DNA from: Arthrobacter silviterrae
Lineage (GTDB): Bacteria; Actinomycetota; Actinomycetes; Actinomycetales; Micrococcaceae
Direction: 5' to 3'
NCBI RefSeq assembly: GCF_011045165.1
Contig: NZ_JAAKZI010000017.1
Location: 1 to 64,000 of the forward strand
Length of the DNA stretch: 64,000 bases
In this document: positions 9,216 through 32,940 of the stretch, one piece after another
Numbering within the stretch: position 1 is the stretch's first letter
Layout of the letters: every line of letters begins with the position of its first letter
The notes under the pieces: generated by a model
What the model saw: the letters and a program-made list of their open reading frames with translations, nothing else
The model's database searches: none
What the model was told of the DNA's origin: nothing
Position numbers and translations under genes: made by a program

Positions 9216-9918
9216 AGGTTCGGCCGACCGGCTTCGGCGGTGGGCGCTGCTGTTCATCGCTGCCGCCGCCATCGCCGGAATCGCCGCTGTGCTGTCGATC
9301 AGGACACCCAACTCTGCAACGGGGACCACAGCCCCGGCGCCGCCGAGCTTGGCACGGGCGACGCCTCCGCCAACCTCTGCAGGTGCCACCCAACGTCCGA
9401 CGGCGGCCAGCCCGACTCTGGACGTGGCACCAGTTCCAGCTGGGGAACCATCCACCCTCGACTTCCGCCAGCTCGCCGCCGCGGCGGCCCGCGCTGTCTA
9501 CACCTGGGACACGCGCACCGCCACCTACTCCCAGACGTACGGAAGGCTGCGCAACTGGTGGCACGTGCTCCCGGACGGCTCGAACCCGTTGACAGTCTTC
9601 GCCACGCAGTTCGAGGCCACCGGGACCAACGCCGCGGCCTACGCATCCCTGACTGGTTCCCAGGGCTACCGCACCGCCCGCCTCCTGAACTCCTCATGTG
9701 ACAGCCAGCTGGCCCAATACGTCCAGCACCCGCCACCCTGGGCCGGGATGCACGTGTGCACCGAGACCCTGGCCGTGACCGAGTACGCCACCTCCGGCAC
9801 CAACAACTACACCGCACCCGTCAGCGTCGTTGTCAACTGCCCGCCGGCAGCGACCGCGCCTGCCAACCGTTGTGACGTGGTGGCTTTCTATGCCGCGGCC
9901 GACCGGATCGTGTACTGA
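9190..9918 (+). CDS. Membrane-anchored conjugation-associated protein
   Basis: 242 aa. A short cytoplasmic N-terminus is followed by one transmembrane helix (about 19-37), a Pro/Thr/Ala-rich spacer (about 45-80) and an extracytoplasmic domain containing several Cys. Position, topology and linker resemble the bitopic VirB8/TcpC-like scaffold proteins of Gram-positive T4SS loci, but no motif proves that family. It overlaps the sigma-like gene upstream and the NlpC/P60 gene downstream by one base (TGATG), so translation is coupled. Confidence 0.6.
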   Translation: MYQKSLHHRGSADRLRRWALLFIAAAAIAGIAAVLSIRTPNSATGTTAPAPPSLARATPPPTSAGATQRPTAASPTLDVAPVPAGEPSTLDFRQLAAAAARAVYTWDTRTATYSQTYGRLRNWWHVLPDGSNPLTVFATQFEATGTNAAAYASLTGSQGYRTARLLNSSCDSQLAQYVQHPPPWAGMHVCTETLAVTEYATSGTNNYTAPVSVVVNCPPAATAPANRCDVVAFYAAADRIVY

Positions 9919-11012
9919 TGCCCGCCCCGGCACTCCTCTTGGGCGCGGTCAAGAAGCGCGCAATACTTAAGCTCGCTGGAACGGCTCTGAGCGCCTTGCT
10001 GCTGTGCTGCGTCATGGCTTTTTGCGGGTCCATGGCCCTGATGGCCGTTGCAGCCCAAGGCTCGACGGCGGCGTGTTCTCTTGCTGCCGGCGGACCGGGG
10101 ACGGCGATGACCATTTCAGTGCCCGGTGGCAAATCTGTCGGACTGAACGCCACCCAGGTGGCAGTGGCCCGGACCTACATCGCCGTCGGCCAGGCCCGCT
10201 CAGTGCCCGACGGCGGCATCGTCATCGCCCTGATGATGGCACTGCAAGAATCCAACCTGCAAATGCTGGCCAACCCGTCCGTGCCTGAGTCCCTGAACTA
10301 TCCCCACGACGGCGTCGGCAGCGACCACGATTCCATGGGCAGCGCCCAGCAACGTCCCTCCGCAGGCTGGGGGACCGTCGCCCAGCTCATGCAGCCCGCC
10401 TACAACGCTGAGGCGTTCTACGGCGGACCCCAAGGACCCAATCACGGCTCCCCGCCAGGATTGTTGGACGTCCCGGGCTGGCAACAGATGGACAAGGGGG
10501 CAGCGGCCCAGGCCGTCCAGGGATCGGCATTCCCGGAACGGTACGCCCAGTGGCAACCGGCGGCCGACCAGATCCTCAAGGCCCTGGCCGCCTCCACAGT
10601 CCCGGCGGCGTGCAGCACCACCCAGCAAAGCCCTGGATTGCCAACGCTGCCCGCCAACCTGAGCCAGCTCCGGCGCAACATCCTCTCCTACGCCCAGCAA
10701 GGTGTCGGTGGTGCCTACGTCTGGGGAGGAACTGCCTTCAAGGCCTGGGACTGCTCCGGCTACGTGCAATGGGTTTTCGGCCAGGCCGGAATCACCCTGC
10801 CGCGGACGGAGCAGTGGACCGTCGGGACGCGGACAACCAACCCACAACCGGGCGACCTCGTCGTCCAGAACCCCGACGGACCAAACCACTGGGGCCACGT
10901 TGGCATCTACGCAGGCAACGGCATGATGTACAGCGCCCTCAACCCGGAAGTGGGTACGCTGTTCCACCCTGTCACGTGGAATAATTTAGCTGCCTATTTT
11001 GTAGCGGTGTGA
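9918..11012 (+). CDS. NlpC/P60 cell-wall hydrolase of the T4SS
   Basis: 364 aa. An N-terminal signal/anchor helix (about 18-48) is followed by a region with an ALQESNLQ Glu motif typical of lysozyme-like or transglycosylase-type segments of conjugation lysins, then a C-terminal NlpC/P60 domain. The catalytic Cys lies in AWDCSGYVQWVF (about 278), the His in HWGHVGIYAG (about 327). This two-domain arrangement is that of VirB1/CwlT-like hydrolases that open the peptidoglycan for the transfer channel. Start by TGATG overlap with the preceding gene. The operon appears to be interrupted directly after this gene by low-GC cargo. Confidence 0.88.
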   Translation: MPAPALLLGAVKKRAILKLAGTALSALLLCCVMAFCGSMALMAVAAQGSTAACSLAAGGPGTAMTISVPGGKSVGLNATQVAVARTYIAVGQARSVPDGGIVIALMMALQESNLQMLANPSVPESLNYPHDGVGSDHDSMGSAQQRPSAGWGTVAQLMQPAYNAEAFYGGPQGPNHGSPPGLLDVPGWQQMDKGAAAQAVQGSAFPERYAQWQPAADQILKALAASTVPAACSTTQQSPGLPTLPANLSQLRRNILSYAQQGVGGAYVWGGTAFKAWDCSGYVQWVFGQAGITLPRTEQWTVGTRTTNPQPGDLVVQNPDGPNHWGHVGIYAGNGMMYSALNPEVGTLFHPVTWNNLAAYFVAV

Positions 11013-11024
11013 CATCAGGGGATT

Positions 11025-11165
11025 TCATTTTATGGCGGTGCTCCACACCATGTCTTCGATATCCTCGACGGAGAGGCTTGAAAGATTTTGACGAAGCCTG
11101 ATTAGCATAGCTCGCCTCAGCACGAAACCCCTAAACAAGTGGCCGGCAAAATTGGCTATTTTCAT
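11025..11165 (-). CDS. Possible 46-aa ORF in the junction region
   Basis: A short minus-strand frame begins MKIANFAGHL and ends in a plausible amphipathic stretch (LSSLSVEDIEDMVWST). There is no convincing ribosome binding site and no recognised family. It may be the remnant of a longer gene cut by the insertion that split the conjugation operon. Weak support. Confidence 0.25.
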   Translation of the reverse strand: MKIANFAGHLFRGFVLRRAMLIRLRQNLSSLSVEDIEDMVWSTAIK

Positions 11166-11539
11166 TCGCTAGGAAACGCGAGTCGGGAATTTGTGCACCA
11201 AAAGTAGCGATAATCCGATCCTCATGATCACAATTGAATCCTAGTTGTCGCCTCGTCTACTGTCTGGCACGTTCCGACGGCTGCTACCTAAGCCACCAAT
11301 TGACATCTGATTGACTTAAAGTAATGCCTATGATCAGCCCGCCCGGTGCTAGGCGAGGGGACTCATGTGACCAGATCACTTAGGGACCTGCCGATCAACA
11401 GTGAAGAGCTTGTCAATGCCTTCGTGCTTGTGAACACAGTATGGTAAGGATATTCATGCGTCATGCCGGATTGATCAGGTCAGTTCATGTTCTTGTGCAG
11501 CTGGTTCCTAAGAATGCACTTATAGCATAGGGTAGACCC
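11166..11539. other. AT-rich intergenic stretch, nothing identified
   Basis: About 370 bases of visibly lower GC lie before the receiver gene. Many stop codons occur in all frames. A TTATAG element about 20 bases before the ATG at 11540 could be a -10 box, but no matching -35 is clear. Confidence 0.5.
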
Positions 11540-12184
11540 ATGTGGAACCATAGAACGCAGTCTCCGCCGCCAAGTATCGAACTGGTACGGAAAAATGCAA
11601 GAATCCTGGTTATCGACGATCAAGAATGGCCTGCCAAAGACATGTTTGAAAGGGATGGCTATCATATCGAGCGATGGCCGGAGATTAAGAATCTATCCCA
11701 ATTGACAGATAGTCACTACCATCTCATTCTACTTGATGTGCATGGCGTGGGTCTGAATGAAAGCCCCGACCTTCATGGACTTGGAATACTCAATCACATA
11801 AAATCCACAAATCCTGCTCAACCAGTGATCGTTTATTCGTCGCAAAAACAAAAGATTTCCGCAAATCAATTTTTGACTAAGGCGGATACTCTTCTTGATA
11901 AGAAAGACTCTTACGTAACCTTCAAAGAGGAGGTCGATAAACTGCTTCTCCGCAGGGCGACGCCGGGCTACTTCATTGCCGTAATGAATGATCAGCTAGG
12001 CGAGAATGCCGTACTGGTTCCTAAGGCCGTGGGAAAGGCGTTGGCCTCATTTAGGACTGGTAGTACGAATCGTCTTGATCAGTACCTCCAGTCTCACATT
12101 AATGATGTTGATCTCATTCAATTGATTATAGGCACAATTGGCATTGGAATTGAAACTATAAAACTATTCGGCGGTGTGTCATGA
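11540..12184 (+). CDS. Stand-alone response-regulator receiver protein
   Basis: 214 aa. Residues about 20-135 form a receiver domain: acidic pair Asp26-Asp27, phospho-acceptor Asp66 in LILLDVHG, Ser100 in VIVYSS, and a Lys at 121/122. The C-terminal about 75 residues (from GYFIAVMND to IGTIGIGIETIKLFGG) are not a DNA-binding domain; the end is hydrophobic. Phosphorylation probably comes from the kinase encoded next, whose start overlaps this gene by 4 bases (ATGA). Codon use is clearly AT-richer than the conjugation genes on either side, indicating separate acquisition. Output unknown. Confidence 0.75.
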   Translation: MWNHRTQSPPPSIELVRKNARILVIDDQEWPAKDMFERDGYHIERWPEIKNLSQLTDSHYHLILLDVHGVGLNESPDLHGLGILNHIKSTNPAQPVIVYSSQKQKISANQFLTKADTLLDKKDSYVTFKEEVDKLLLRRATPGYFIAVMNDQLGENAVLVPKAVGKALASFRTGSTNRLDQYLQSHINDVDLIQLIIGTIGIGIETIKLFGGVS

Positions 12185-13323
12185 ACGCATCTCCCTGGAG
12201 TCTTTTCCCCTATCCAACAATTGCTGATGGGCACTTTTCGGACGGTTCTATTCTGGCCGTTCATCCGGATTGTATTCAATGCCCACAACGGTATTGTTTG
12301 ACCGATAGGGATGCCCAAATAGGTGAATTGAAAATCTGCCGATATGGATTGTCGTATGCTCGTGTCGACGATGAGAGAATTGTTTTAGGCGTAGTATCCG
12401 CTGATACGGATAATATGTCACCCAGGGCGCGGAAAAGAAATAGAAAAGAACCCGCCCGCCGGGTGCGGCCTATGGAGGTGAAGGGTGCGATTGGGAGAGC
12501 TCGCGATCTCGGCCCCGGAGTAGTTGACGACTTTGTGACGATGAAAAGCATTCTGATTGATGAAGCGAAGAATGATCCCGAATTTCAAAAGTCGATCGCT
12601 GCTCAATTCCGAGGAGAGTATGAAGATAGTCTGAATCAGAGTCATGACTTTTTGCAATTGATGAATCTTGTACGAGGAAATGCTGAAAATCTCTTACATG
12701 AGAGATATCCGGGTTTGGTTGCGGAAGATGCGGCAGATCAATGGCGCGAAGTCGGGTCCATATATTTTGCGACCCTGCTTATGCGCATGAAGATGGATTC
12801 ACTTCTTTATTTACACGAAATTAATCGTGTTCATGGTGGGGAGCGTCGATTCGACGTCCATCCTTTTGTATTGAAGTACGTCAGAATATATGATTGGCAG
12901 GCTAAGCAGAAGAATTTGCGAATAGTTGTGGCCGGTAAGTGTCACGCTCGGATAAAATATAATAGTGATGCAGTTGGTTCCGTCGTTCAAGGCCTGTTGG
13001 ACAACATGGTTAAGTATGCACCACCTGGATCGACGGCAACTATTGTCTTTGACGAAGCTGTGGATGATGTCAGATTGACGTTTGAATCTCTTGGTCCGAG
13101 AATCGAAATAGATGAGAGAATTCAAATTTTTATGCCCAAATATCGCGCTCGGGCTGCGAGGCAGGCTGAGGCTGAAGGGCAAGGTATAGGTCTGGCGGCT
13201 GTTAAGCAGGTGTCCGACGCATTGTCGCTCGGAATTGAGGTGGAACAATCAGACCTTGAGGATGGCAATTATCCGGCACGGTACGTCACTAAGTTCACAA
13301 TTAATTTGCGTGTTGCAAATTGA
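12181..13323 (+). CDS. Soluble histidine kinase with N-terminal Cys cluster
   Basis: 380 aa, no transmembrane segment. The N-terminus has Cys31, Cys34, Cys39 and Cys53 (C-x2-C-x4-C-x13-C), which could bind zinc or an iron-sulfur cluster. A helical region contains SHDFLQLM with His155 followed by Asp-Phe, similar to the DcuS/CitA type phospho-acceptor helix. The C-terminal HATPase domain has an N-box LLDNMVKYAPP (about 270) and a G-box GQGIGLAAVKQVSD (about 333). The partner receiver gene overlaps it. Both genes lie inside the conjugation operon as AT-rich cargo. The signal sensed and the target are unknown. Confidence 0.72.
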   Translation: MNASPWSLFPYPTIADGHFSDGSILAVHPDCIQCPQRYCLTDRDAQIGELKICRYGLSYARVDDERIVLGVVSADTDNMSPRARKRNRKEPARRVRPMEVKGAIGRARDLGPGVVDDFVTMKSILIDEAKNDPEFQKSIAAQFRGEYEDSLNQSHDFLQLMNLVRGNAENLLHERYPGLVAEDAADQWREVGSIYFATLLMRMKMDSLLYLHEINRVHGGERRFDVHPFVLKYVRIYDWQAKQKNLRIVVAGKCHARIKYNSDAVGSVVQGLLDNMVKYAPPGSTATIVFDEAVDDVRLTFESLGPRIEIDERIQIFMPKYRARAARQAEAEGQGIGLAAVKQVSDALSLGIEVEQSDLEDGNYPARYVTKFTINLRVAN

Positions 13324-13418
13324 TTTAGGCAATTCCGGTTTGGCAAGGGTGGGATGGTTTCGTGCCTTCGAAGCAAAAAGTTGGTTGAATAAGGGCGGTT
13401 GCTGGTAGGTGTAGGCCG

Positions 13419-14433
13419 ATGTCGTTTTCGGATCGGGTCGCCATCGCTGTAGGAATCTCGTCTGGTATGAGAGTTTGTCAGATAGTGGGCGATCTTGGTC
13501 GGTGTCGTACCATTATTTGGCGGAGCGGCCGCGGAACTCGACGAGGACGTAGGGATACCGGCCGTTGAGTGCCGACTGTGTTGCCGAACGCCGACGGAGA
13601 TTGGCGCTGCCACGGACGATCAAGATGGATTCGGTCCTTTCAGCACGCCTGGAGACCGATCTGGCTGGGTCCGGGACGTGGCGGGAGATCGCCAGCTGTT
13701 TGCGTTTGGAGGCAACTGACAACAGTGTCGAGACCATGACGAAGACACCCGACGTCGAATGCCGCACCGTGCTCCTCGAAGCGATTAGCCGTTGGATCTA
13801 CGCCCGGCACAAAACGGAGCAGGCGAAGACGTGGACCTGCTCCAGTCCAGGCGCATCAAGCGCAAGGCTTGCACGCTGCTTTGTATAAGAACCGGGATGC
13901 CGGATCAATGAGATGGTCAGCATTGATGACCATCTTGAGACGACCTCGTATTGCCGTTTCCCGGTGCATGGGAAGGGGATGTGGTGGTCGGCAAGACGGC
14001 AAAGCCGTAATCTTGACCCTCGGCAAGTGGCACAGCAAGTTCCTGACGATGCTGGGCCCACGGGAAGGCAAGACGGCCGATGGGCTGGCAGCTGTCCTAA
14101 TCTACTGGGTCAACGACCTGCCAGCCCTGACGCGCGGCTCACTGACCTGGGACAAGGGCATCGAGATGGCCCGCCACGCCAAACTGACTCTGGCCACGAA
14201 CCTGCCCGTGTACTTCGTCCAGCCCCACTCGCCCAGAAAGCGACCATCCAACGAAAACACCAACGGGCTCATCCGGGAGCACATGACCAGCATATCGAGT
14301 TGACCCGACACCAACCCTGCATGTACTCCATCGCCGACGAACTTAACGACCGGCTCACGCAGTCTTAGGGTTCCTCACCTTACGGGAAGTATTCACCAAG
14401 CTACGCAACGACAGGGTTGCTGAGACGGCTTGA
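13419..14433 (+). pseudogene. Degenerate IS30-family transposase
   Basis: The N-terminus MSFSDRVAIAVGISSG is the IS30 HTH start. Later blocks in other frames read LTLGKWHSKFL, RGSLTWDKGIEMARHAK and NENTNGLIREH, which are DDE-region signatures of IS30 transposases (expected form LTWDQG.EMA.H and NENTNGL.R), and the C-terminus VFTKLRNDRVAETA. Reading requires several frame changes and passes stops, so the gene is dead. Terminal inverted repeats were not recognised. It adjoins the kinase/receiver pair and probably helped bring that cargo into the conjugation operon. Confidence 0.85.
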
Positions 14434-14558
14434 CGCCGCAGGGCCTTCAAGGGAGAACTCGGTTAGACAGATTGGTCATATAGTTTCGCCACCGACCAAC
14501 CATGAAGCAAGTGAACATACTGTCCACGCACGTGGACAGACACCGAATGGAGTTCACG

Positions 14559-14849
14559 ATGTTGTACATGGCAGCGGTGGATCCGGGCATTACACCGAAC
14601 ACCAACTTTCCGTTTCTCGAGTCGCTCAAGCAGATCGGCGGCGGCATCCTCGTCGGCGCATTCATTGTGATCGCCATCGTGGCGATCATCGGCGCCGCGA
14701 TGCTCCTGGCCGGCAAACTGAGCCAGTCCTCGCGGCTGGCTTCCGGCGGCGGCATGATCCTGCTCTGGACCGGGCCCGTGGCGGCGATCCTGGGCGGCAT
14801 CAACGGCTACATCCTGTGGTCGCAGAACGCGTTCAACCTCGGTTTCTAG
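14559..14849 (+). CDS. Small two-helix membrane protein of the T4SS (TrbC/VirB2-like position)
   Basis: 96 aa with two hydrophobic segments (about 30-52 and 62-86), preceded by a short FLESLKQIGGG helix. Size and topology fit the pilin/TrbC-like slot of actinobacterial conjugation loci, but sequence proof is lacking. I start it at ATG 14559, which has GGAG 7 bases upstream; earlier ATGs in frame have no such site. It resumes the conjugation operon after the interruption and is 9 bases from the VirB6-like gene. Confidence 0.65.
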   Translation: MLYMAAVDPGITPNTNFPFLESLKQIGGGILVGAFIVIAIVAIIGAAMLLAGKLSQSSRLASGGGMILLWTGPVAAILGGINGYILWSQNAFNLGF

Positions 14850-14858
14850 GTCGCGGCC

Positions 14859-16310
14859 ATGCTACCGATGGTCAAATGCGGTGCCGACGGCTGGTGGCCG
14901 CCCGGCTGCGGCATCGTGTCCCAAGCAAATGACGACTTCGCCTCGTCCGTCACGGCCTACATCGCAGGCATCCTGGAGAACATGGCCTCGTGGATGTGGT
15001 CATTTATCTCCGGCGCGTTCGGCGTCTCCAACATTGACACCTCCGAATGGGCTATTGTCAGCGGCCTGACGAACTGGTGGATTGTCGTCATGATGACACC
15101 CTTGGTCGTCGTCATGATCGTGCAGCTGATCGCAGGACTGGTCAGCCAGCAGCCGCGCCGCATTGGACGTGCGCTGCTCGGCGGTGCCCTGGCTGTTCCG
15201 CTGGTGTTCGTGGCCACGGGCCTCATGGGCAAGCTGTCCAGCTTCACCGACTCGGCATCGACGGCGCTGCTGCAGACCCTTGGTACGGATCCCTACGTCG
15301 TGTTCATGCGGCTCTTCGGCTTCCAACGTGCACCCCTCGGCTCCGGCCGGACCTGGGACGTGGTCTCGCTCAGCACCGGAACGGCAGCCGGCCCGGTCGG
15401 CGGCGTGGTCGTCACCGCCATCGCAGTCCTGGTCGTATGGATCCTGTCCTTCATCCTCATGTGCTCCATGATCTTCCGCTCCTTCGCCCTGATCGTCCTT
15501 GCCGCGGTGGCCCCTGTGGCACTCATGCTGCTGCCGTGGGAGCGCACCAAATCGTGGACCCGACTCTGGTGCGAAACGGTCGTCGCCCTCCTGATCGCCA
15601 AACCGCTGGCCGCCACCGTGCTGGCAGTGGCCGTGAAACTGTTCGCCAATTCGACGTCGTTCAGCGGGCTCGCCTCCGGCGCCGTCGGCATGGTCCTCGC
15701 CTGCGGCGCACCCCTGATGGCCCTGAAACTTGTCAGCTTCGCCGGAGGCGAGATCGCCGGAGCGGCACAGATGGCAGGCGGCGGCCACGTCGCCAGCCGA
15801 GCAGGTTCCTTCACCGGACGCCAACTTGGCCGCCAGTTCGGCGGAAAAGTGCACCTGCCTGGCACAGGGGACAAGGGCCCCAGTCCTGTCCCGTCCACTC
15901 CGCGCGTGGGGTCCTTGCATCAAAACTCCGTCCCACTAGGGACTCCCGCACCCTTTGGCGGTTCAGGGCCAAAAGGGAGCTCGTCTCGGCCCTCAGGCGG
16001 GGCTTGGCCCATGCCCGGTTCGGCGCCGAAGGGCAATGCGGAATCTGGGCACGGACACGACGGCCCCGAAAGGCCAGCTCACGGTCAGCGAAATGTATCA
16101 ACGCCACAGCCTGCGCAGGCAAAAAGTCCCACGACGTCACGCTATCCGGGCCGGCCAAGAACGACGGCGTCCAGCCCGCCACCGCCTTCACCGGCACCGA
16201 CGGTGAAACCGCCGGACGTACCAGGGCGGCACGCTACACCCCCGCCGAACCTTCCGCCGCGAACGAATCCGAAGACCGATCCAAGAATTGGAGATGGCAG
16301 CCATGACTGA
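14859..16310 (+). CDS. Polytopic VirB6/TrbL-like conjugation protein
   Basis: 483 aa. After an exported-looking N-terminus there are about six transmembrane segments between residues 40 and 300, including WWIVVMMTPLVVVMIVQLIAG and LVVWILSFILMCSMIF, followed by a long Pro/Ser/Gly/Arg-rich cytoplasmic or disordered tail (about 330-483). The organisation matches TrbL/VirB6-type inner-channel proteins of Gram-positive conjugation systems. Its 3' end overlaps the SCO6880 gene start. Confidence 0.78.
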   Translation: MLPMVKCGADGWWPPGCGIVSQANDDFASSVTAYIAGILENMASWMWSFISGAFGVSNIDTSEWAIVSGLTNWWIVVMMTPLVVVMIVQLIAGLVSQQPRRIGRALLGGALAVPLVFVATGLMGKLSSFTDSASTALLQTLGTDPYVVFMRLFGFQRAPLGSGRTWDVVSLSTGTAAGPVGGVVVTAIAVLVVWILSFILMCSMIFRSFALIVLAAVAPVALMLLPWERTKSWTRLWCETVVALLIAKPLAATVLAVAVKLFANSTSFSGLASGAVGMVLACGAPLMALKLVSFAGGEIAGAAQMAGGGHVASRAGSFTGRQLGRQFGGKVHLPGTGDKGPSPVPSTPRVGSLHQNSVPLGTPAPFGGSGPKGSSSRPSGGAWPMPGSAPKGNAESGHGHDGPERPAHGQRNVSTPQPAQAKSPTTSRYPGRPRTTASSPPPPSPAPTVKPPDVPGRHATPPPNLPPRTNPKTDPRIGDGSHD

Positions 16311-23102: not shown

Positions 23103-23474
23103 TCAAGGCGCGCGGCCCGTCCGTCGATTGCACAGTTCATGATCGAAGGCGCGTATCTCGTGGGTGATTCGTCCGCGTGAATCATGGGCCATGACGACGC
23201 GGGTGCCGCGATCCACTAGGGTGTCTAAAATTCGATATGACTCGGCACGCGGAGTTCGAACAGTGAGTGCACGGAGATCCTGATCAGGGCCACAACGGTT
23301 GGCCCCGGCGGACAACAGGTGCGCCTCAAATGTAGTCCGTTGCCGATCAGCGTCGTGGTAGGCGTTCCGGTACGTCTCGTAAATAACGATGGATGCCGGC
23401 GTTCGACGAATACGTTTTGAGACACGGTCGTGAGACTTGCCGGTCAGGACGAAATCGCAACACGCCGCGATCAT
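23103..23474 (-). CDS. Unrecognised ORF, possible remnant
   Basis: About 123 aa. Part of the translation looks protein-like (LRALTVRTPRAESYRILDTL, RGTRVVMAHDSRGRITHEIR), but I recognise no family. No ribosome binding site is evident and the frame contains two GTCTC-type repeats. It may be a decayed gene. Weak support. Confidence 0.3.
   Translation of the reverse strand: MIAACCDFVLTGKSHDRVSKRIRRTPASIVIYETYRNAYHDADRQRTTFEAHLLSAGANRCGPDQDLRALTVRTPRAESYRILDTLVDRGTRVVMAHDSRGRITHEIRAFDHELCNRRTGRAP
23373..23440. repeat. GTCTC-type repeat cluster (copies left of ApeA gene)
   Basis: CGTCTCGTAAATAACG at 23373-23388 and an inverted copy CGTTTTGAGACAC at 23413-23425 with a neighbouring GTGAGAC. They share the core of the repeats at 24950, 24989 and 26480. 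A similar ACGTCTCATA lies at 23513. Confidence 0.4.
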
Positions 23475-23608
23475 CGGGACTTTGGCTCGGCCGCGGCTGC
23501 TTGGTCCATGGGACGTCTCATATCCCTGGGGATACAAGACATTTGCGGAAATGCCGAGCTTCGGCGTCGAATCCCGACTCGCGTTCACAGCGGTCTAAGC
23601 TCGCTGTC

Positions 23609-24913
23609 ATGGACAACGATCTTCTGAAGGGAACTCGACGCGTAGGGAACCTCGTCGATTTCAATGCGAATACCCCACCTGTTTCCGCCACGCTGGTGCG
23701 CGAAGATGAGGGTATCAGCCTAACCGTTCCGTGGAGCGGAAGCGACGATTACTACTCGTCGTGGTTCATGGGCGAGCACACACGGCGTCCGGAGTTGGCA
23801 GTCTGGCCGCCTATGCCCAAAAGGCTCTTGTTCCAGGACTCCCACGGGTCTGTGCTCTTGGTCGATTGTTGGGCGAGGGGATTTCACACCAATTTTTCGA
23901 CCGGTACCGGGCGAGTTTGGGCGCGGTATGCGGTCCTGGGCGTCGATGGCGACATCGACTACTCCGTTGTTAATGGCGTCCGATCTGAGGTTACTGGGCT
24001 ACGGGAATGGCTTGGCGTTGAATCTTTCAAGGAAGACTACGACTTTGAATCCCGTGTTCTTACGATCAAAGCAGTATCAAGCGAACCGATCGAAGTAAGT
24101 TCACTCCTGAAGTTCCGCCCGAGTTGGGACGTCACCCGCGACGGTCACGAATCAACGACGATCAAGAACCTCGTGTTCTGTGAGTCGAGAAGCAGTGATC
24201 CCTCTTCCTGGAAAGACCTCATGGGGGCACATTGGGGCATTAGGGATCTACTTGTTGTTTCGCGATGGGTGCAAGAGACGTGCACCATACTTCAAGCGCA
24301 ACACGCCGACGACCCACTTAAAACTATGGATGGCGCCGAACATGGCGAACAATGGCGAACGGTGATTGAGCCCCACTCCGATCCGTCGCCGTCGCCGCCG
24401 ACGGGACAGCGCCCTCATCTAGTGGAATATTCAGACCTCGGCCCGAACGGGATCGCTCTTTGGCTTTCGCTCCGCGAACGGTTCCAGAGAGCACTCGATC
24501 CGATCATTTCAGACCGTTTTATCAGCAAGGTGGGTGCCATAACCCATATGGCACAGGTCGGACCGGGTCTCGAGGCACTTGGATTTCTGATCATGCAGAC
24601 AAAGGATGGAATGAGCGCCTCAGAAGCCAATCGAAAGCCTCTTCGTGCACGGTTGGACCGGATCCTTCGCGAAATAGAGGACGTCGTGCCTTTTGATGGC
24701 AGTGACTGGGCTGCCGGAATGACAGAGGCCTACAACGGGATAAAGCACGCAAACCGCGACCTCCCCACCGAACTAGAATTGCTTAACCGGTGGCGAGAAT
24801 CGGTCCTCGCAGTGCGCATTTGGGTTGCTCGAGAGCTCAGGGTAAAGGCAGAAGATATCCGTAGTCGACTGGAGCGCGACCCGCAGACTACGCCATACGT
24901 CACTAGGACTTGA
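23609..24913 (+). CDS. ApeA-like HEPN-domain antiphage protein
   Basis: 434 aa. The N-terminal half is beta-rich and begins GTRRVGNLVDFNANTPPVSATL, the layout of the ApeA N-terminal domain. The C-terminal half is helical and contains a WAAGMTEAYNGIKHANRDLP motif (around 376-381), which fits the HEPN-type RNase motif of ApeA-like abortive-infection proteins, although the usual Arg before the Asn is Tyr. ApeA proteins act alone as phage defence. The ATG at 23609 begins the conserved part; the upstream open frame is not needed. It lies among GTCTC-type repeats, close to a restriction system. Family call is by pattern, not search. Confidence 0.6.
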   Translation: MDNDLLKGTRRVGNLVDFNANTPPVSATLVREDEGISLTVPWSGSDDYYSSWFMGEHTRRPELAVWPPMPKRLLFQDSHGSVLLVDCWARGFHTNFSTGTGRVWARYAVLGVDGDIDYSVVNGVRSEVTGLREWLGVESFKEDYDFESRVLTIKAVSSEPIEVSSLLKFRPSWDVTRDGHESTTIKNLVFCESRSSDPSSWKDLMGAHWGIRDLLVVSRWVQETCTILQAQHADDPLKTMDGAEHGEQWRTVIEPHSDPSPSPPTGQRPHLVEYSDLGPNGIALWLSLRERFQRALDPIISDRFISKVGAITHMAQVGPGLEALGFLIMQTKDGMSASEANRKPLRARLDRILREIEDVVPFDGSDWAAGMTEAYNGIKHANRDLPTELELLNRWRESVLAVRIWVARELRVKAEDIRSRLERDPQTTPYVTRT

Positions 24914-26508: not shown

Positions 26509-26700
26509 CATGGGATGCAAGATAGCCTGCGCTCTCGTAGCTGCGGTCTATCGAGACGTTCGGAATCTCGATTCCGAGCGACACTCGAATGCGCCATAGA
26601 GTGCCGAACGCCGCACCATCGCCTCCTCATTCAAGGACACAGGACTCCGAGGCGCGGCCACGGTCCAATGCAACCAGCCGGAATGCGGCAAGATGATTGC

Positions 26701-29700
26701 ATGGGATCTGCAACATTCGAGGACGTGCTTGACCGGCTGTACTTCACTGCCATTGACCAGAAGGACAAAGGCAGCAAGTTTGAGCGGTTGGTCAAGCGGT
26801 ATCTGCAGCTGGAGCCGAAGTATGCAGACCAGTTTTCAGATGTCTGGATGTGGCAGGATTACCCTGGCCGGGACGGCAAGGTGGACACCGGCATAGACCT
26901 GGTCGCCAAAGACCGGTACACGGGCGAGCTGACGGCTATCCAGTGCAAGTTCTATGACCCGATGTCCACGCTGCAGAAGGCGCAGATCGACTCGTTCTTC
27001 ACTGCTGCCGGCAAGACCGACTTTTCCTACGGCATGGTCGTCTCCACTACGGACCACTGGTCCAAGCACGCCGAGGATGCACTTGAGGGCCAGTCGAAGG
27101 GAATGACCCGGCTACGCTTGAAGGACTTGGCCGAGTCAACGATTGACTGGTCGCAGTTCGACGTCGATGTCCCCGAGCAGATGCGCAAGCTGGACCGCAA
27201 GGAACCCCGCATATACCAGCGTGACGCCATCAACGATGTCAAAGCTGGCTTCCAAACCGAAGATCGCGGCAAGCTGATCATGGCTTGCGGTACCGGCAAG
27301 ACATACACCTCCCTCAAGATCGTGGAGGAACAGGTTCCCATTGGCGGAACCGTGCTCTTCCTCGTCCCCTCAATCGCGTTGCTGCAGCAGACACTGAACG
27401 AATGGACCGCCCAGGCCACCGTTCCTCTCCGGGCGTTCGCTGTCTGCTCCGACACCAAGGTCGGCCGCAAGGAGAACGAAGATGTCAACGTCCATGACCT
27501 GGCATTTCCGGCCACCACGGACCCAGTGAAGTTGCTGAACCGTGCCCGCATCAGCACGGGGCGGGAGGCCGTGACCGTTGTCTTCTCCACATACCAGTCC
27601 ATCGATGTCATTGCCCAGGCCCAGCAGCAGGGCCTTGCCGATTTTGCCATGATCCTCTGCGACGAAGCCCACCGAACCACGGGCATTACTGAAGCAGACC
27701 ATGATGATTCATCCTTCGTCCGCGTCCACGATGAGACGTACGTGAAGGCGGCGAAGCGCCTGTACATGACAGCTACGCCCCGCATCTACGTCCAGGAGTC
27801 CAAGGCGAAGGCCGCCGAGGACAACGTGGCGGTCTACTCGATGGACGACGAGGCAGTGTTCGGGCCCGAGTTCCATCACCTCGGCTTCGGAAAAGCCGTC
27901 GAGATGGGCCATCTGGCCGACTACAAAGTCCTTGTCCTGGCAGTGGATGAAGAAGCGGTGTCGCGCTCTTTCCAAGGCATGTTTGAGGAGAACGGTGATC
28001 TCAAGCTCGACGACGTTGCCCGCATCGTGGGGTGTTGGAACGGCCTTTCCAAACGGGGGGTCAACGGCCAGCGCCTGGACATTGCCGACGCCAGCCCCAT
28101 GCGCCGGGCCGTGGCCTTCGCCCGCAACATCAAGGAATCGAAGAAGCTTGCAGAGGAATTCGAGCTCATCGGCAAGCAGCTCCTCGTCAATGCAGCCGAA
28201 GCGGAGGCAGAGGACGCGTTGAAGCTGGAGGCTGGCCACGTGGATGGGACCTTCAACGTTCTGGAACGTTCCGCGAAACTTGACTGGCTCAAGGAACCGG
28301 CAGACGGTAACGTCTGTCGCATTCTTTCCAACGTCAAATGCCTTTCCGAGGGCGTGGACGTGCCCTCCCTGGACGCAGTGCTGTTCCTAAACCCACGGAA
28401 CTCGCAGGTCGACGTCGTCCAGTCCGTGGGCCGTGTGATGCGCAAGGCTGAGGGCAAGGAATACGGGTACATCATCCTGCCCATCGCTGTGCCGGCGTCC
28501 CGGGACCCGGAGACTGCCCTGAACGACAACAAAAAGTACAAAGTTGTCTGGGACGTGCTGCAGGCCCTGCGCGCCCACGATGACCGCTTCGAGGCAATGA
28601 TCAACAAGCTTGACCTGAACCGCAATGCCAATGATGTCATTGACGTCATCGCGGTCACTGATCCGTTCAACGCGGACGACGGCGGCGCTCCTGCCCAGGA
28701 GAAAAGCGGCACTGACACTGGAATTCCCCAGGAGACGCTGTTCGCCCTGGCCAGGGCAGATGAATGGCGGAACGCGATCTTCGCCCGCATGGTTCGCAAG
28801 GTTGGCGATCGGCGGTACTGGGAATCCTGGGCCACGGACGTCAAGGACATCGCGGACCGGCACGTGATCCGCATCCGCACCATCCTGGACGGGCCGGATC
28901 CCCGGGCCCGCCAAGAGTTCTCCGTCTTCCTGGACGGCCTTCGGGGAAACCTGAACGACGGCATCAGCGAATCAGACGCAATTGACATGCTTTCCCAGCA
29001 TTTGATTACCAAGCCCGTTTTCGAGGCCTTGTTTGACGGTTACTCCTTTGCCGCCCACAATCCGGTGTCCCAGGTCATGGATTCCATGGTCGCCGTGCTC
29101 GAGCAGTACAACCTCGACTCCGAGGTTCAGAATTTGGAAGACTTCTATCGCTCGGTGCGGATCAGGGCCGAAGGCGTTACCAATGCTGAGGGCAAACAGA
29201 AGATCGTCACGGAACTGTACGAACGGTTCTTCAAACTGGCCTTCCCCCGCACCGCAGAATCCCTCGGCATCGTCTACACGCCGGTCGAGGTGGTGGACTT
29301 CATCATCCGCGCTGTGGACGACGTGCTGGTCAAGGACTTTAATTCGTCCCTCTCGGCGCCGGGTGTCCACGTTCTCGACCCGTTCGCAGGAACCGGCACA
29401 TTCACTGTGCGGCTCCTGCAATCGGGCCGGATTAAACCGGCGGATTTGCTGCGCAAGTACACCCAGGAACTCCATGCGAACGAAATCCTGCTCATGGCCT
29501 ATTACATTGCGGCCATCAACATCGAAGCCACACTGCATGGAATCCTGGAAGACCAGGCTGCAGCCGTAGGAGGGGATCCCGCCGAGGTGGAGTATGTGCC
29601 GTTCGACGGCATGGTGCTCACCGATACGTTCCAGATGTCCGAGGACGGCGATACCCTCGACGAGCACGTTTTTACGTCCAACAACGATCGCCTGGTTGCC

Positions 29701-31542
29701 CAAAACAAGCTCGATATCCGCGTCATAATTGGCAATCCGCCCTACTCGGTGGGCCAGTCCAGCGGCAACGACAACAACGCCAACCTGAAATACCCCACAC
29801 TGGACGAGTCAATCCGCTCGACCTACGCCGAGAGGTCGACGGCGACGAACAAGAACTCGCTCTACGACTCCTACATCCGGGCCATTCGATGGGCGTCCAA
29901 CCGGATCCTTGCCTCGCCCGACGGCGGCGTGGTCGCCTACGTCTCCAACGGTGGCTACATAGATGGCAACACGGCAGACGGCCTGCGCAAAACCCTCGTC
30001 GGAGAGTTCCACGATATATATGTCTACAACCTCCGCGGCAACCAGCGCACAGCGGGCGAGCAAAGCCGCAGGGAGGGCGGCAAAATTTTCGATTCAGGCA
30101 GTCGCAACACGGTGGCCATCTTGATCCTCGTGAAGAAGTCCGGGACGACGCCGGGCGCCGTGCTGCACTACGTGGACATTGGCGACTATCTCGATAGAAC
30201 GGAAAAACTCGCCCTTGTCGACAGGGCCGGCATTGGCACCCTCGACTGGGCCACCATAACGCCCAACGCCGAGGGTGACTGGATCAATCAGCGCAACGAT
30301 GTCTTCGAATCTTTCCAGCCTATAGGAGACAAGAAGTCAGGCAGGGGTATTTTTGCCACATATTCTAGGGGGCTGGCCTCAGCTCGCGATGCGTGGGTTT
30401 ACAACTCCTCTGCTGACAAACTTCGTCACAATGTAGATTCTCTGGTCTCGTTCTACAACAGCGAGGTGGACCGTTACACTTCAGACGGCAAGGGGGTTGG
30501 AGTTGCCGGCTTCATCAATACCGATGCAACGAAACTGAGTTGGAACCGGGCCGACAAGGCGCAGCTCAAGCGCGGTACGAAATACGCCGTCCATGATGCT
30601 GGCTACCGCACCGCTGCGTACCGTCCTTTCAACAAGCAGAACGTTCACTTCAGCCGCCAGCTCAATGACATGGTTTATCAACTGGAAACCATCTTCCCGA
30701 CACCTGATATCGAAAACTACGGGCTGATTATTACAGGAGTGGGGGCGGCAATGAATTTCTCTACTCTTGCTGTCGACCATGTGAGTGATTTGTCGCAGTT
30801 CGGTGGCCAGACCAATAGTCAGTTCTACCCTCGATACACCTACACAACCTCGGCACCTGGAGACGACTTGTTCTCTTCGGCGGGAGCGTCCTCGTCCCCG
30901 GAACGAGCGGACAATATTACGGATGCGACGCTGGCCGACTACCGCGCCGGTTATGGTGCAACGGTCAGCAAGGACGACATCTTTTTCTACGTCTACGGTC
31001 TGCTGCACTCGCCCGAGTACCGCGGTGAGTTCGCGGCAGACTTGAAGAAAATGCTTCCGCGCATTCCCAAGGTGCCCGGGGCGGAAAAGTTCATGGCGTT
31101 CTCGCAAGCGGGCCGGGAGCTGTCCGCTCTACACATAGGCTACGAACAGCAAAAGCCGTACCATCTGACGGAGGTGGAGACCGCCGTCGTGCCTGCGGAG
31201 GACGAGTATGCGAAGTACGCGGTGAAGAAGATGAAGTACGGCGGCAAGGCCGGCGCGTGGGATAAAACAAGGATCATCTACAACAGCCATGTCACCCTCG
31301 ACGGCGTGCCAGCGCAGGCGCAGAATTACATGCTCGGCGCCCGCTCGGCCATTGACTGGATTCTGGAGCGGTACCAGGTGAAGACGGACAAGGCCTCCGG
31401 GATTGTCAATGACCCCAATGACTGGTCACGCGAGCACGGCCAGCCGCGGTACATCATTGACCTGATCGGCCGGATCGTCACGGTGAGCCTGGAGACGAAC
31501 AGGATCGTGGACGGGCTGCCTTCGTTGGACTTGGCGGAGTGA
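26701..31542 (+). CDS. Type ISP restriction-modification enzyme (single polypeptide)
   Basis: 1613 aa. Domains in order: Mrr/PD-(D/E)XK-like nuclease (VDTGIDLVAK around 62-70, IQCKF around 80-84); SF2 helicase with Walker A ACGTGKT near 197, DEAH near 319, and motif VI QSVGRVMRKAEG; coupler; N6-adenine methyltransferase with motif I DPFAGTGTF near 893 and motif IV NPPYS near 1013; C-terminal target-recognition region. This is the LlaGI/LlaBIII architecture, which methylates one strand and cuts by translocation from unmodified sites. All catalytic motifs look intact. The ATG at 26701 is chosen because homology begins there; upstream frame is repeat DNA. It is a self-contained defence gene of the element. 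Confidence 0.93.
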   Translation: MGSATFEDVLDRLYFTAIDQKDKGSKFERLVKRYLQLEPKYADQFSDVWMWQDYPGRDGKVDTGIDLVAKDRYTGELTAIQCKFYDPMSTLQKAQIDSFFTAAGKTDFSYGMVVSTTDHWSKHAEDALEGQSKGMTRLRLKDLAESTIDWSQFDVDVPEQMRKLDRKEPRIYQRDAINDVKAGFQTEDRGKLIMACGTGKTYTSLKIVEEQVPIGGTVLFLVPSIALLQQTLNEWTAQATVPLRAFAVCSDTKVGRKENEDVNVHDLAFPATTDPVKLLNRARISTGREAVTVVFSTYQSIDVIAQAQQQGLADFAMILCDEAHRTTGITEADHDDSSFVRVHDETYVKAAKRLYMTATPRIYVQESKAKAAEDNVAVYSMDDEAVFGPEFHHLGFGKAVEMGHLADYKVLVLAVDEEAVSRSFQGMFEENGDLKLDDVARIVGCWNGLSKRGVNGQRLDIADASPMRRAVAFARNIKESKKLAEEFELIGKQLLVNAAEAEAEDALKLEAGHVDGTFNVLERSAKLDWLKEPADGNVCRILSNVKCLSEGVDVPSLDAVLFLNPRNSQVDVVQSVGRVMRKAEGKEYGYIILPIAVPASRDPETALNDNKKYKVVWDVLQALRAHDDRFEAMINKLDLNRNANDVIDVIAVTDPFNADDGGAPAQEKSGTDTGIPQETLFALARADEWRNAIFARMVRKVGDRRYWESWATDVKDIADRHVIRIRTILDGPDPRARQEFSVFLDGLRGNLNDGISESDAIDMLSQHLITKPVFEALFDGYSFAAHNPVSQVMDSMVAVLEQYNLDSEVQNLEDFYRSVRIRAEGVTNAEGKQKIVTELYERFFKLAFPRTAESLGIVYTPVEVVDFIIRAVDDVLVKDFNSSLSAPGVHVLDPFAGTGTFTVRLLQSGRIKPADLLRKYTQELHANEILLMAYYIAAINIEATLHGILEDQAAAVGGDPAEVEYVPFDGMVLTDTFQMSEDGDTLDEHVFTSNNDRLVAQNKLDIRVIIGNPPYSVGQSSGNDNNANLKYPTLDESIRSTYAERSTATNKNSLYDSYIRAIRWASNRILASPDGGVVAYVSNGGYIDGNTADGLRKTLVGEFHDIYVYNLRGNQRTAGEQSRREGGKIFDSGSRNTVAILILVKKSGTTPGAVLHYVDIGDYLDRTEKLALVDRAGIGTLDWATITPNAEGDWINQRNDVFESFQPIGDKKSGRGIFATYSRGLASARDAWVYNSSADKLRHNVDSLVSFYNSEVDRYTSDGKGVGVAGFINTDATKLSWNRADKAQLKRGTKYAVHDAGYRTAAYRPFNKQNVHFSRQLNDMVYQLETIFPTPDIENYGLIITGVGAAMNFSTLAVDHVSDLSQFGGQTNSQFYPRYTYTTSAPGDDLFSSAGASSSPERADNITDATLADYRAGYGATVSKDDIFFYVYGLLHSPEYRGEFAADLKKMLPRIPKVPGAEKFMAFSQAGRELSALHIGYEQQKPYHLTEVETAVVPAEDEYAKYAVKKMKYGGKAGAWDKTRIIYNSHVTLDGVPAQAQNYMLGARSAIDWILERYQVKTDKASGIVNDPNDWSREHGQPRYIIDLIGRIVTVSLETNRIVDGLPSLDLAE

Positions 31543-31788: not shown

Positions 31789-32940
31789 ATGCAGGTTAAC
31801 AGGGCACTAGAGCAGCATATTGCAGTTTTTGGCGAGAGCGGAAGCGGCAAAACTGTCATGATCTCTTCGTTCTATGGGGCAACGCAGGAACCTCAGTATC
31901 TCCAGAAAAGTCTGTTCCATGTGGTGGCAGATGAGATTGGCCAAGGTAATAGGCTCCACCGAAACTATCTTGGAATGAGAGATTCAGCTCGGCTTCCTTC
32001 GCCCACCCGTTTTTCTGCGACTTCCTACTCTTTCTCCGTCAGGCTGAAGGATGGGGTAGAAGGGAAGGCGATGAAGGCTAGGCCCTTCGATGCCTTGCGC
32101 CTCGTTTGGCACGATTACCCGGGGGAGTGGTTCGAGGAGGACGTGAGTGGTCTAGACGAGGCATCACGAAAGATTGACACGTTTAAGTCATTGTTGGGTT
32201 CTGATGTCGCTCTTTTGCTCGTAGATGGTCAGCGGTTGCTGGACAACGCCGGCGAAGAGGAGCGGTATCTGAAGTCGTTGCTTGCCAATTTCCGCAATGG
32301 ATTCCTGTCACTAAAGGATGAACTTTTGGAGGACGGCAAGCCGCTTGTTGAGTTCCCACGGATATGGATCATGGCGCTGTCAAAGTCTGATCTCCTGTCC
32401 CACCTAGACGTGTTCAATTTCAGGGACCTCCTCATTGATAAGGCCGGCGAGGACATTACCGAATTGCGCGAAGTGCTCGCTGGGCTGGTAGAAGCGAACG
32501 ACGCCCTGTCAGTTGGCGAAGATTTCGTGCTGCTTTCGTCAGCGAAGTTCGGAGCGGACAAGATCGAGGTGGCCAAGCGGGTCGGTCTGGAATTGATTTT
32601 GCCTATCGCCGCCATGCTGCCATTCGAACGTCACGTACGGTGGGCGCAGGTGAAGCAACTTCCAGGGAAAGTCGTACAAAATCTGCTGGTCGGCGCTGTG
32701 GCTCTTGCACCAATACTTATTGGGCGTAAGGCCAAGCTGCCTGGCCCGCTAGCGGCCCTTCTGGCCGCTGTCGGTCCTAATCTCATGGACGAGGCACTCA
32801 AGATGGCCGCAGACAAGCTTCGGGAAGTAAACTCCTCGGCCCTGGCCAAAAACGACTATCTGACGGCCACGTTGACCCGGTTCCGGATGGACCTGGACAA
32901 GGGTGAAGAGGAGCACGTCCTCATCAGGAGCCGCAGATGA
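31789..32940 (+). CDS. TRAFAC-like P-loop GTPase, conflict-system type
   Basis: 383 aa. The P-loop GESGSGKT is at 15-22, almost at the N-terminus. WHDYPGEWF near 107-115 serves as the G3 (DxxG) motif and ALSKSDLL near 197-204 as G4 (SKSD in place of NKxD). The C-terminal region (about 290-345) has hydrophobic helices (VVQNLLVGAVALAPILIG, PLAALLAAVG) that could insert in or contact a membrane. The next gene overlaps its stop by 4 bases (ATGA). GTPases of this kind occur in bacterial conflict loci, but I know of no exact match. Function is inferred only from the position beside the restriction enzyme. Confidence 0.7.
   Translation: MQVNRALEQHIAVFGESGSGKTVMISSFYGATQEPQYLQKSLFHVVADEIGQGNRLHRNYLGMRDSARLPSPTRFSATSYSFSVRLKDGVEGKAMKARPFDALRLVWHDYPGEWFEEDVSGLDEASRKIDTFKSLLGSDVALLLVDGQRLLDNAGEEERYLKSLLANFRNGFLSLKDELLEDGKPLVEFPRIWIMALSKSDLLSHLDVFNFRDLLIDKAGEDITELREVLAGLVEANDALSVGEDFVLLSSAKFGADKIEVAKRVGLELILPIAAMLPFERHVRWAQVKQLPGKVVQNLLVGAVALAPILIGRKAKLPGPLAALLAAVGPNLMDEALKMAADKLREVNSSALAKNDYLTATLTRFRMDLDKGEEEHVLIRSRR

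Follow-up and report, generated by a model that had tools for sequence, protein, structure and literature searches.

A receiver and soluble histidine kinase gene pair in a variable slot of an Arthrobacter conjugative element: a candidate anti-phage module related to PDC-M43

What does a receiver and histidine kinase gene pair do inside a cluster of conjugation genes? The 64,000-nucleotide stretch of Arthrobacter silviterrae DNA analyzed here (referred to below as the window) carries such a pair within its T4SS gene cluster, on the same strand as the T4SS genes, and a sequence-only reading had suggested that it might time transfer of the element or act in host conflict. The observation itself proved largely right, including the placement in a conjugation gene cluster; our analysis makes transfer timing unlikely and supports host conflict, both through the family to which the pair is related (PDC-M43) and through its genomic location. 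To our knowledge, two-component signaling has rarely been linked to phage defense. Our main reading, to which we assign a probability of about 0.6, is that the pair was acquired horizontally and is a divergent relative of PDC-M43, forming a two-gene, nontranscriptional candidate anti-phage module.

The gene pair and its family

The first gene (11540..12184, + strand) encodes a 214-aa, PDC-M43A-like receiver protein, with a CheY-like receiver domain followed by C-terminal helices (Pfam, PADLOC, and an AlphaFold model), and the second (12181..13323, + strand) encodes a 380-aa, PDC-M43B-like soluble histidine kinase (Pfam, PADLOC, and PDB folds). The kinase ATG overlaps the receiver stop codon in an ATGA, both frames are intact, and scans for promoters and terminators gave counts near chance (6 against 3.7 ± 2.0 in shuffles and 3 against 3.0 ± 1.6, respectively). 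The Response_reg match of the receiver (25.7 bits) lies under the Pfam cut-off of 30.2 and is its sole Pfam match at E ≤ 1, no DNA-binding domain being found at that threshold; the 50 PDB matches listed are response regulators, with PorX first and one Spc42 fusion among them. As had been claimed, the phosphorylation residues are all present (D26, D27, D66, S100, and K121). The kinase has a HATPase_c domain (44.8 bits; Pfam cut-off, 26.4), no other Pfam match at E ≤ 1, and no membrane-like segment (best 19-residue Kyte-Doolittle mean, 1.14), in agreement with its description as soluble. Cys31, Cys34, Cys39, Cys53, and His155 are where they had been reported, and the protein also carries Cys254. 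His155 (12643..12645, + strand), the predicted phosphorylation site, sits on a DHp-like helix in the AlphaFold model (residues 133 to 173); no Pfam DHp family was matched at E ≤ 1. The DcuS relation proposed for this helix was dropped: no DcuS/CitA-type family appears in Pfam at E ≤ 1 or among 25 of the 43 NCBIfam matches, the protein lacks the membrane helices expected around a periplasmic sensor of that type, and the 50 PDB matches listed are histidine-kinase-type cores, topped by HK853 and then BceS and CpxA.

Both proteins match models of PDC-M43 in PADLOC, the receiver as PDC-M43A (E = 2.5e-16) and the adjacent kinase as PDC-M43B (E = 1.5e-13), PDC-M43 being a PADLOC-DB candidate defense system, itself a prediction, and the match being assessed by E-value rather than by PADLOC system rules. 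Like the window pair, PDC-M43 consists of a receiver gene followed by a gene for a cytoplasmic HATPase kinase. The window kinase differs in matching M43B in its HATPase part alone (kinase residues 221 to 357, positions 185 to 320 of the 347 in the model) and in adding a three-Cys N-terminal motif. As the kinase matches M43B only in part, we class the pair as a PDC-M43-related variant and not as a tested member. The receiver also shows a weak match to SduA in PADLOC (E = 0.0033). We found no paper naming PDC-M43, and in the accessible portions of the literature we recognized no report testing a receiver and kinase pair of this sort.

Relatives were reached through conjugative plasmids. Used as queries in plasmid protein searches, the window proteins gave no match at E ≤ 1e-8 or E ≤ 1e-5, nor did scans of viral contigs with either protein singly recover a relative; a loose tblastn search of plasmids with the receiver gave 52 records at E ≤ 10, three of which were taken as relatives and opened up the family. 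These three conjugative plasmids, from Escherichia coli, Phaeobacter, and Shewanella, carry an annotated receiver of 201 to 214 aa followed by a kinase of 327 to 354 aa (for Phaeobacter, a longer 373-aa reading of the kinase was used in alignments). In the PADLOC scan of pair proteins, which covered the window and the three plasmid loci (L016 to L018), all six plasmid proteins matched PDC-M43, those of L016 and L018 strongly and those of L017 more weakly. IMG/VR scans with profiles of the plasmid relatives then gave 13 loci, 11 of them with the pair in the same order; the other two, L044 and L045, were dropped (ordinary kinase; cut kinase; no partner found). A loose search with the kinase yielded 143 plasmid records, the best 40 of which are mostly heavy-metal kinases; L019, from this search, proved to be an ordinary pair whose partner is a transcription factor, and L007, from Photorhabdus, which was likewise set aside, reads as an ordinary kinase next to a regulator of the DNA-binding type. 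Neither phages searched with the E. coli receiver nor E. coli genomes searched with the DNA of the E. coli pair gave a match.

The resulting sample comprises 15 pairs: the window, the three plasmid loci, and the 11 viral-contig loci (L020 to L029 and L043). The recurrence of the pair in identical order at 14 other loci shows that the pairing is more than chance. Distances among the 15 receivers and among the 15 kinases are correlated (r = 0.886, a value inflated by near-copies such as L026 and L027; none of 2,000 permutations was as high). The window proteins are only distantly related to the others, with 15 to 26% identity to aligned relatives and long tree branches; no starred set in the trees contains the window, and its placement is unreliable. 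The sequence-only reading had called such a pair unusual in an ICE, which stands as a relative statement, given that three conjugative plasmids carry relatives.

Near its host the pair is rare. At E ≤ 1e-15 a kinase match was present in one of 98 genomes, the host's own, and in none of the other 22 genomes of the genus. A profile of ten receivers at E ≤ 1e-10 recovered the host genome as the single match among 394 genomes of the class, and PDC-M43A at the same threshold matched one of 396 genomes of the phylum and none of 14 controls. With a four-row receiver profile at E ≤ 1e-5, 13 of 396 genomes had a match; the best besides the window (4.4e-10) lies in a 503-aa open frame, and all twelve nonwindow matches are taken as other receivers. 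At the order level, eight of 396 genomes, the host included, had a kinase match at E ≤ 1e-10 in a search that scored at most four candidates per genome among the matches listed and could miss a relative; the matches in the other seven fall within query residues 216 to 371, in the C-terminal half, at 27 to 41% identity.

Genomic locations and the variable slot

Several of the viral-contig relatives lie in places that are informative in themselves. The L028 pair lies between an upstream Psu gene and a downstream tyrosine integrase gene, as in a P4-like satellite. In L020 and L021, as in P2-type phages, Phage_GPA precedes the pair and a portal gene lies beyond it, separated from the pair by further ORFs. 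According to the accessible text of Rousset et al. 2022 (PMC9122126), the P4-like psu-int and P2-like gpA-gpQ intervals are anti-phage hotspots. Thus, three of the 11 viral-contig relatives sit in hotspots described in the literature, and the other eight sit in none nameable from print, among them L043, which adjoins terminase and portal genes, L026, which adjoins a lambda-type integrase, and L024, which adjoins serine recombinases. The window slot differs from the P2 and P4 hotspots in lying within an actinobacterial conjugative element. Around the 11 viral pairs there are 102 neighboring ORFs, 10 of which were scanned with Pfam and 66 with PADLOC. The 66 matched 64 PADLOC families; among the 25 families listed, methyltransferases predominate, and ShosA, RmrA, and a restriction enzyme are represented by one neighboring ORF each. 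Since some members of this little-studied family occur in known phage-defense spots, the mobile pair is probably a defense module rather than a gene-transfer switch.

In the window, the pair occupies a variable, low-GC cargo slot (11013..14473; GC and flank comparison, right edge approximate). The slot is bounded on the left by an NlpC/P60 peptidase gene (9918..11012, + strand; Pfam and flank comparison) and on the right by a small conserved gene and a gene for a TrbL/VirB6-like protein (together 14502..16310, + strand; TrbL, 25.1 bits against a cut-off of 25.9). About 25 to 30 bp ahead of the small gene are alike in the window and its closer relatives and mark the right edge. GC content is 44 to 49% around the pair (500-base windows starting at 11000 to 13000) against mostly 62 to 71% in the surroundings, and it is 55 to 61% in the right part of the slot. 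That part holds an IS30-type transposase remnant (13869..14303, + strand) about 39% identical to an annotated IS30 family transposase; the remnant matches nothing else in the genome at E ≤ 1e-5 and no Pfam family at E ≤ 0.001. The remnant raises the possibility that the pair is itself decaying past cargo whose function has been lost, which would also suit its isolation in the class and its long branches. Against this, both frames are intact and overlapping, and the receiver residues and the kinase His are conserved, and we regard decay as improbable.

The window also encodes a tyrosine integrase, a TraG-like coupling protein, and an ArdC-like protein, and from the integrase and T4SS genes the element appears to be an ICE. 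At E ≤ 1e-20, the TrbL protein (14859-16310) has a sole plasmid match. It lies on an Arthrobacter plasmid of 754 kb, with 69.7% identity over 72%, and gives a hint as to the group of hosts in which the element circulates. Elsewhere in the window lie genes for a 1,675-aa single-chain Type ISP restriction-modification enzyme (26515-31542; Mrr_cat_2, ResIII, methylase, and specificity domain), an adjoining Double-GTPase 2 domain protein (31789-32940), and an ApeA_NTD1 protein with no PADLOC match at E ≤ 1e-5 (23393-24913).

Of the 23 genomes of the genus, 19 have a TrbL homologue of this element family; with the host left aside, the count is 18 of 22. We fetched 20 homologous slot regions, 18 of which have both flanks (L060 and L069 were dropped, with a contig end and a left flank that was not found). 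Five of the 18 slots are almost empty, with 116 to 128 bp between the flanks, and 13 are filled with 1.45 to 8.9 kb; no match to the window receiver or kinase was found in any of the 20 regions. The empty slots belong to more distant copies of the element (NlpC/P60 identity, 55 to 65%), and the six closest copies (73 to 91%) are all filled. A scan of 10 of the 52 slot ORFs of at least 90 aa, picked by eye from six loci as defense-like or unclear, identified GmrSD_N and HEPN (L059), NACHT (L062), DUF4365 (L064), a PD-T4-6-like kinase (L065), an nSTAND-like protein under the Pfam cut-off (L068), and IS21-type genes (L063). Several slots hold genes that, as judged by reading, appear to serve sugar transport or other metabolic functions, so that the cargo is not always defense and this counts against the defense reading. 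The NACHT-domain protein is 1,846 aa long (L062:1281-6821). The slots of L072 and L073, at 1,452 bp and 51% GC, have no ORF of at least 90 aa and possibly contain decayed cargo.

These comparisons bear on the suggestion that the pair regulates the conjugative element by sensing a cue and controlling the timing of transfer via contacts with T4SS proteins. The pair does share strand and cluster with the T4SS genes, and the Phaeobacter plasmid pair likewise lies a few kilobases from VirB genes. On the other side, all 18 related copies with both flanks have either no cargo or different cargo in the slot, none of the other 97 genomes searched has a matching kinase at E ≤ 1e-15, several family pairs adjoin phage genes (psu, gpA, portal, and integrases), and the GC content of the pair is below that of most surrounding windows. 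Because the slot is variable, we reject a conjugation regulator as the main reading and consider it, like decay, improbable.

Sensor region, ATP pocket, and receiver tail

The four cysteines noted previously were found to be conserved in part. The N-terminal Cys motif (C-x2-8-C-...-C-x-x-G, residues 31 to 56; 12271..12348, + strand), searched for as C-x2-8-C-x10-22-C-x-x-G within the first 110 residues, is present in five of the 15 kinases in the alignment (the window, L022, L023, L024, and L028), where Cys31, Cys34, and Cys53 are common to all five and Cys39 is absent from the other four. The motif was matched by 12 of the 499 ORFs of 110 aa or more in the family loci; seven of the 12 are these kinases, three of them copies of the window. 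The recurrence of three cysteines in five kinases therefore marks the motif as a real but optional feature. The N terminus is much shorter in the kinases of L026, L027, L029, and L043, and because of this the sensory domain is optional or replaced within the family; the other domain-bearing kinases of the ten lack the motif. The three conserved cysteines would fit a metal site, structural or sensing. AlphaFold confidence for kinase residues 1 to 110 (pLDDT block means of 30 to 52) is too low to name a fold for the Cys domain. Pfam gave only three one-member matches for the five N-terminal regions (E = 0.1 to 0.2), and a profile search of solved structures with the Cys region returned Mucin-2 alone (E = 0.25). 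A PocR domain (PF10114), which the motif had suggested for this region, is not supported: at a maximum E of 10, a setting at which the HMMER filters already remove most matches weaker than about 0.1, none of the five N-terminal regions matched it, and PF10114 has no match in the genome of the window at E ≤ 0.01.

The cysteines are the natural starting point for a view of the pair as an ordinary cytoplasmic two-component system that senses redox state or metal in a stress response of the host or the element. Three cysteines common to five kinases, together with the lack of a transmembrane sensor, would agree with this view. The sequence-only reading had itself taken homologs without the cysteines to weigh against such a sensor, and ten of the 15 kinases lack the motif, four of them with much of the N terminus; moreover, no transcription output domain was found, and some relatives sit in phage and satellite hotspots. 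An ordinary sensor pair is on balance a poor prospect, only marginally better placed than transfer control or decay.

The description of the HATPase domain as intact needs qualification: the domain is clearly recognized by Pfam, and its G1 box is degenerate (S303-L-G305; 13087..13095, + strand), with Ser303 in place of the usual Asp. In the 15-kinase alignment this Asp is replaced throughout (Ser in ten, Met in four, and Asn in one), whereas 12 of 14 ordinary kinases aligned alongside have Asp at the same position and two have Asn. Elsewhere in the domain, N275, K278, G333, G335, and G337 (the Asn and the G2-box glycines among them) are invariant in all 15. With the Asp lost in every kinase sampled, kinase activity may be weak or absent. 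The pair could accordingly be a noncatalytic variant of the defense module, one that does not exclude the main reading, in which a kinase that forms no phospho-His serves as an ATP-independent or ligand-gated partner of the receiver. In addition to the retained Asn and glycines, conservation speaks against this: His155 is present in 14 of the 15 kinases (the exception, L043, is possibly misaligned), and D66 of the receiver (11735..11737, + strand), the predicted phosphoacceptor, is Asp in all 15. Since two of the 14 control kinases also lack the G1 Asp, its loss alone is no proof of inactivity, and we hold a noncatalytic pair to be unlikely, if distinctly less so than the ordinary sensor. The other receiver residues are similarly preserved, with D26 and D27 invariant, Ser or Thr at position 100 in all 15, and Lys at position 121 in 14.

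The receiver had been described as lacking any output, and it proved not to be a bare domain. In the AlphaFold model the CheY-like domain is followed by helices at residues 142 to 172, 177 to 186, and 190 to 211, which lie in lower-confidence blocks (mean pLDDT, about 56 to 70), and residues 192 to 210 (12113..12169, + strand) form a hydrophobic C-terminal helix (Kyte-Doolittle mean, 1.69) that is a candidate for membrane or protein contact. Such an extension is found in 11 of the 15 receivers, with best 19-residue hydrophobicity ranging from 0.77 to 1.69, values borderline for membrane insertion, the window having the highest. The remaining four receivers (L016, L018, L020, and L021) have no C-terminal extension and carry an N-terminal hydrophobic segment (1.36 to 2.08) instead, so that the window receiver differs in this respect from L016 and L018, which match M43. 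Either end of the receiver may attach the protein to the membrane.

A candidate defense module

Taken together, these observations are consistent with a scheme in which the small N-terminal domain of the kinase, here bearing the three-Cys motif, would read an infection cue, the motif probably being a structural or sensing metal site. The kinase would then signal through His155 to Asp66 of the cotranslated receiver, and the helical, hydrophobic C-terminal tail of the receiver would act on the membrane or on a partner protein, stopping the phage or the cell. The strongest support for an anti-phage role is location: three relatives are in hotspots, three are on conjugative plasmids, and the slot that holds the window pair contains defense-type genes, along with other kinds, in other copies of the element. 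The Type ISP restriction enzyme and the ApeA_NTD1 protein beside the T4SS genes in the window also favor defense. The case is weakest in three respects: the window is far removed from the core family, no experimental report was found, and the ATP pocket is altered.

Detocs also uses two-component proteins in phage defense, and it has a third, effector gene, which encodes a purine nucleoside phosphorylase. Neither window protein had a PADLOC match named Detocs at E ≤ 1, in a library that may not contain Detocs models; among the ORFs between the pair and TrbL, the one at 13869-14303 was scanned with Pfam. The word "histidine" has no occurrence in the accessible main text of Rousset et al. 2022 (PMC9122126). 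In the accessible part of DefensePredictor (PMC13092281), a figure legend on predicted, unvalidated defense systems names HATPase and REC domains, a likeness of domain names in a legend that may mean neither one system nor this family.

A fuller version of the defense reading, which we put forward tentatively, as less likely than not but somewhat likelier than the noncatalytic pair, would have two parts. The first is an immune module that is, or derives from, a phosphorelay, with a cytoplasmic Cys-motif sensor, an altered ATP pocket, and the hydrophobic tail of the receiver itself as the effector, such that two-component signaling would end in membrane action or abortive infection without transcription. 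The second is a family of actinobacterial conjugative elements that would keep a defense cargo slot inside the T4SS cluster.

What the family offers is a kinase and receiver pair, without a recognizable transcription factor, in locations that phages, satellites, and conjugative elements use for anti-phage genes. The receiver tail is a possible direct output, and with none of the 15 kinases keeping the G1 Asp, the kinase chemistry itself becomes a question. For this family of elements, the slot between NlpC/P60 and TrbL is a place in which to seek further defense genes.
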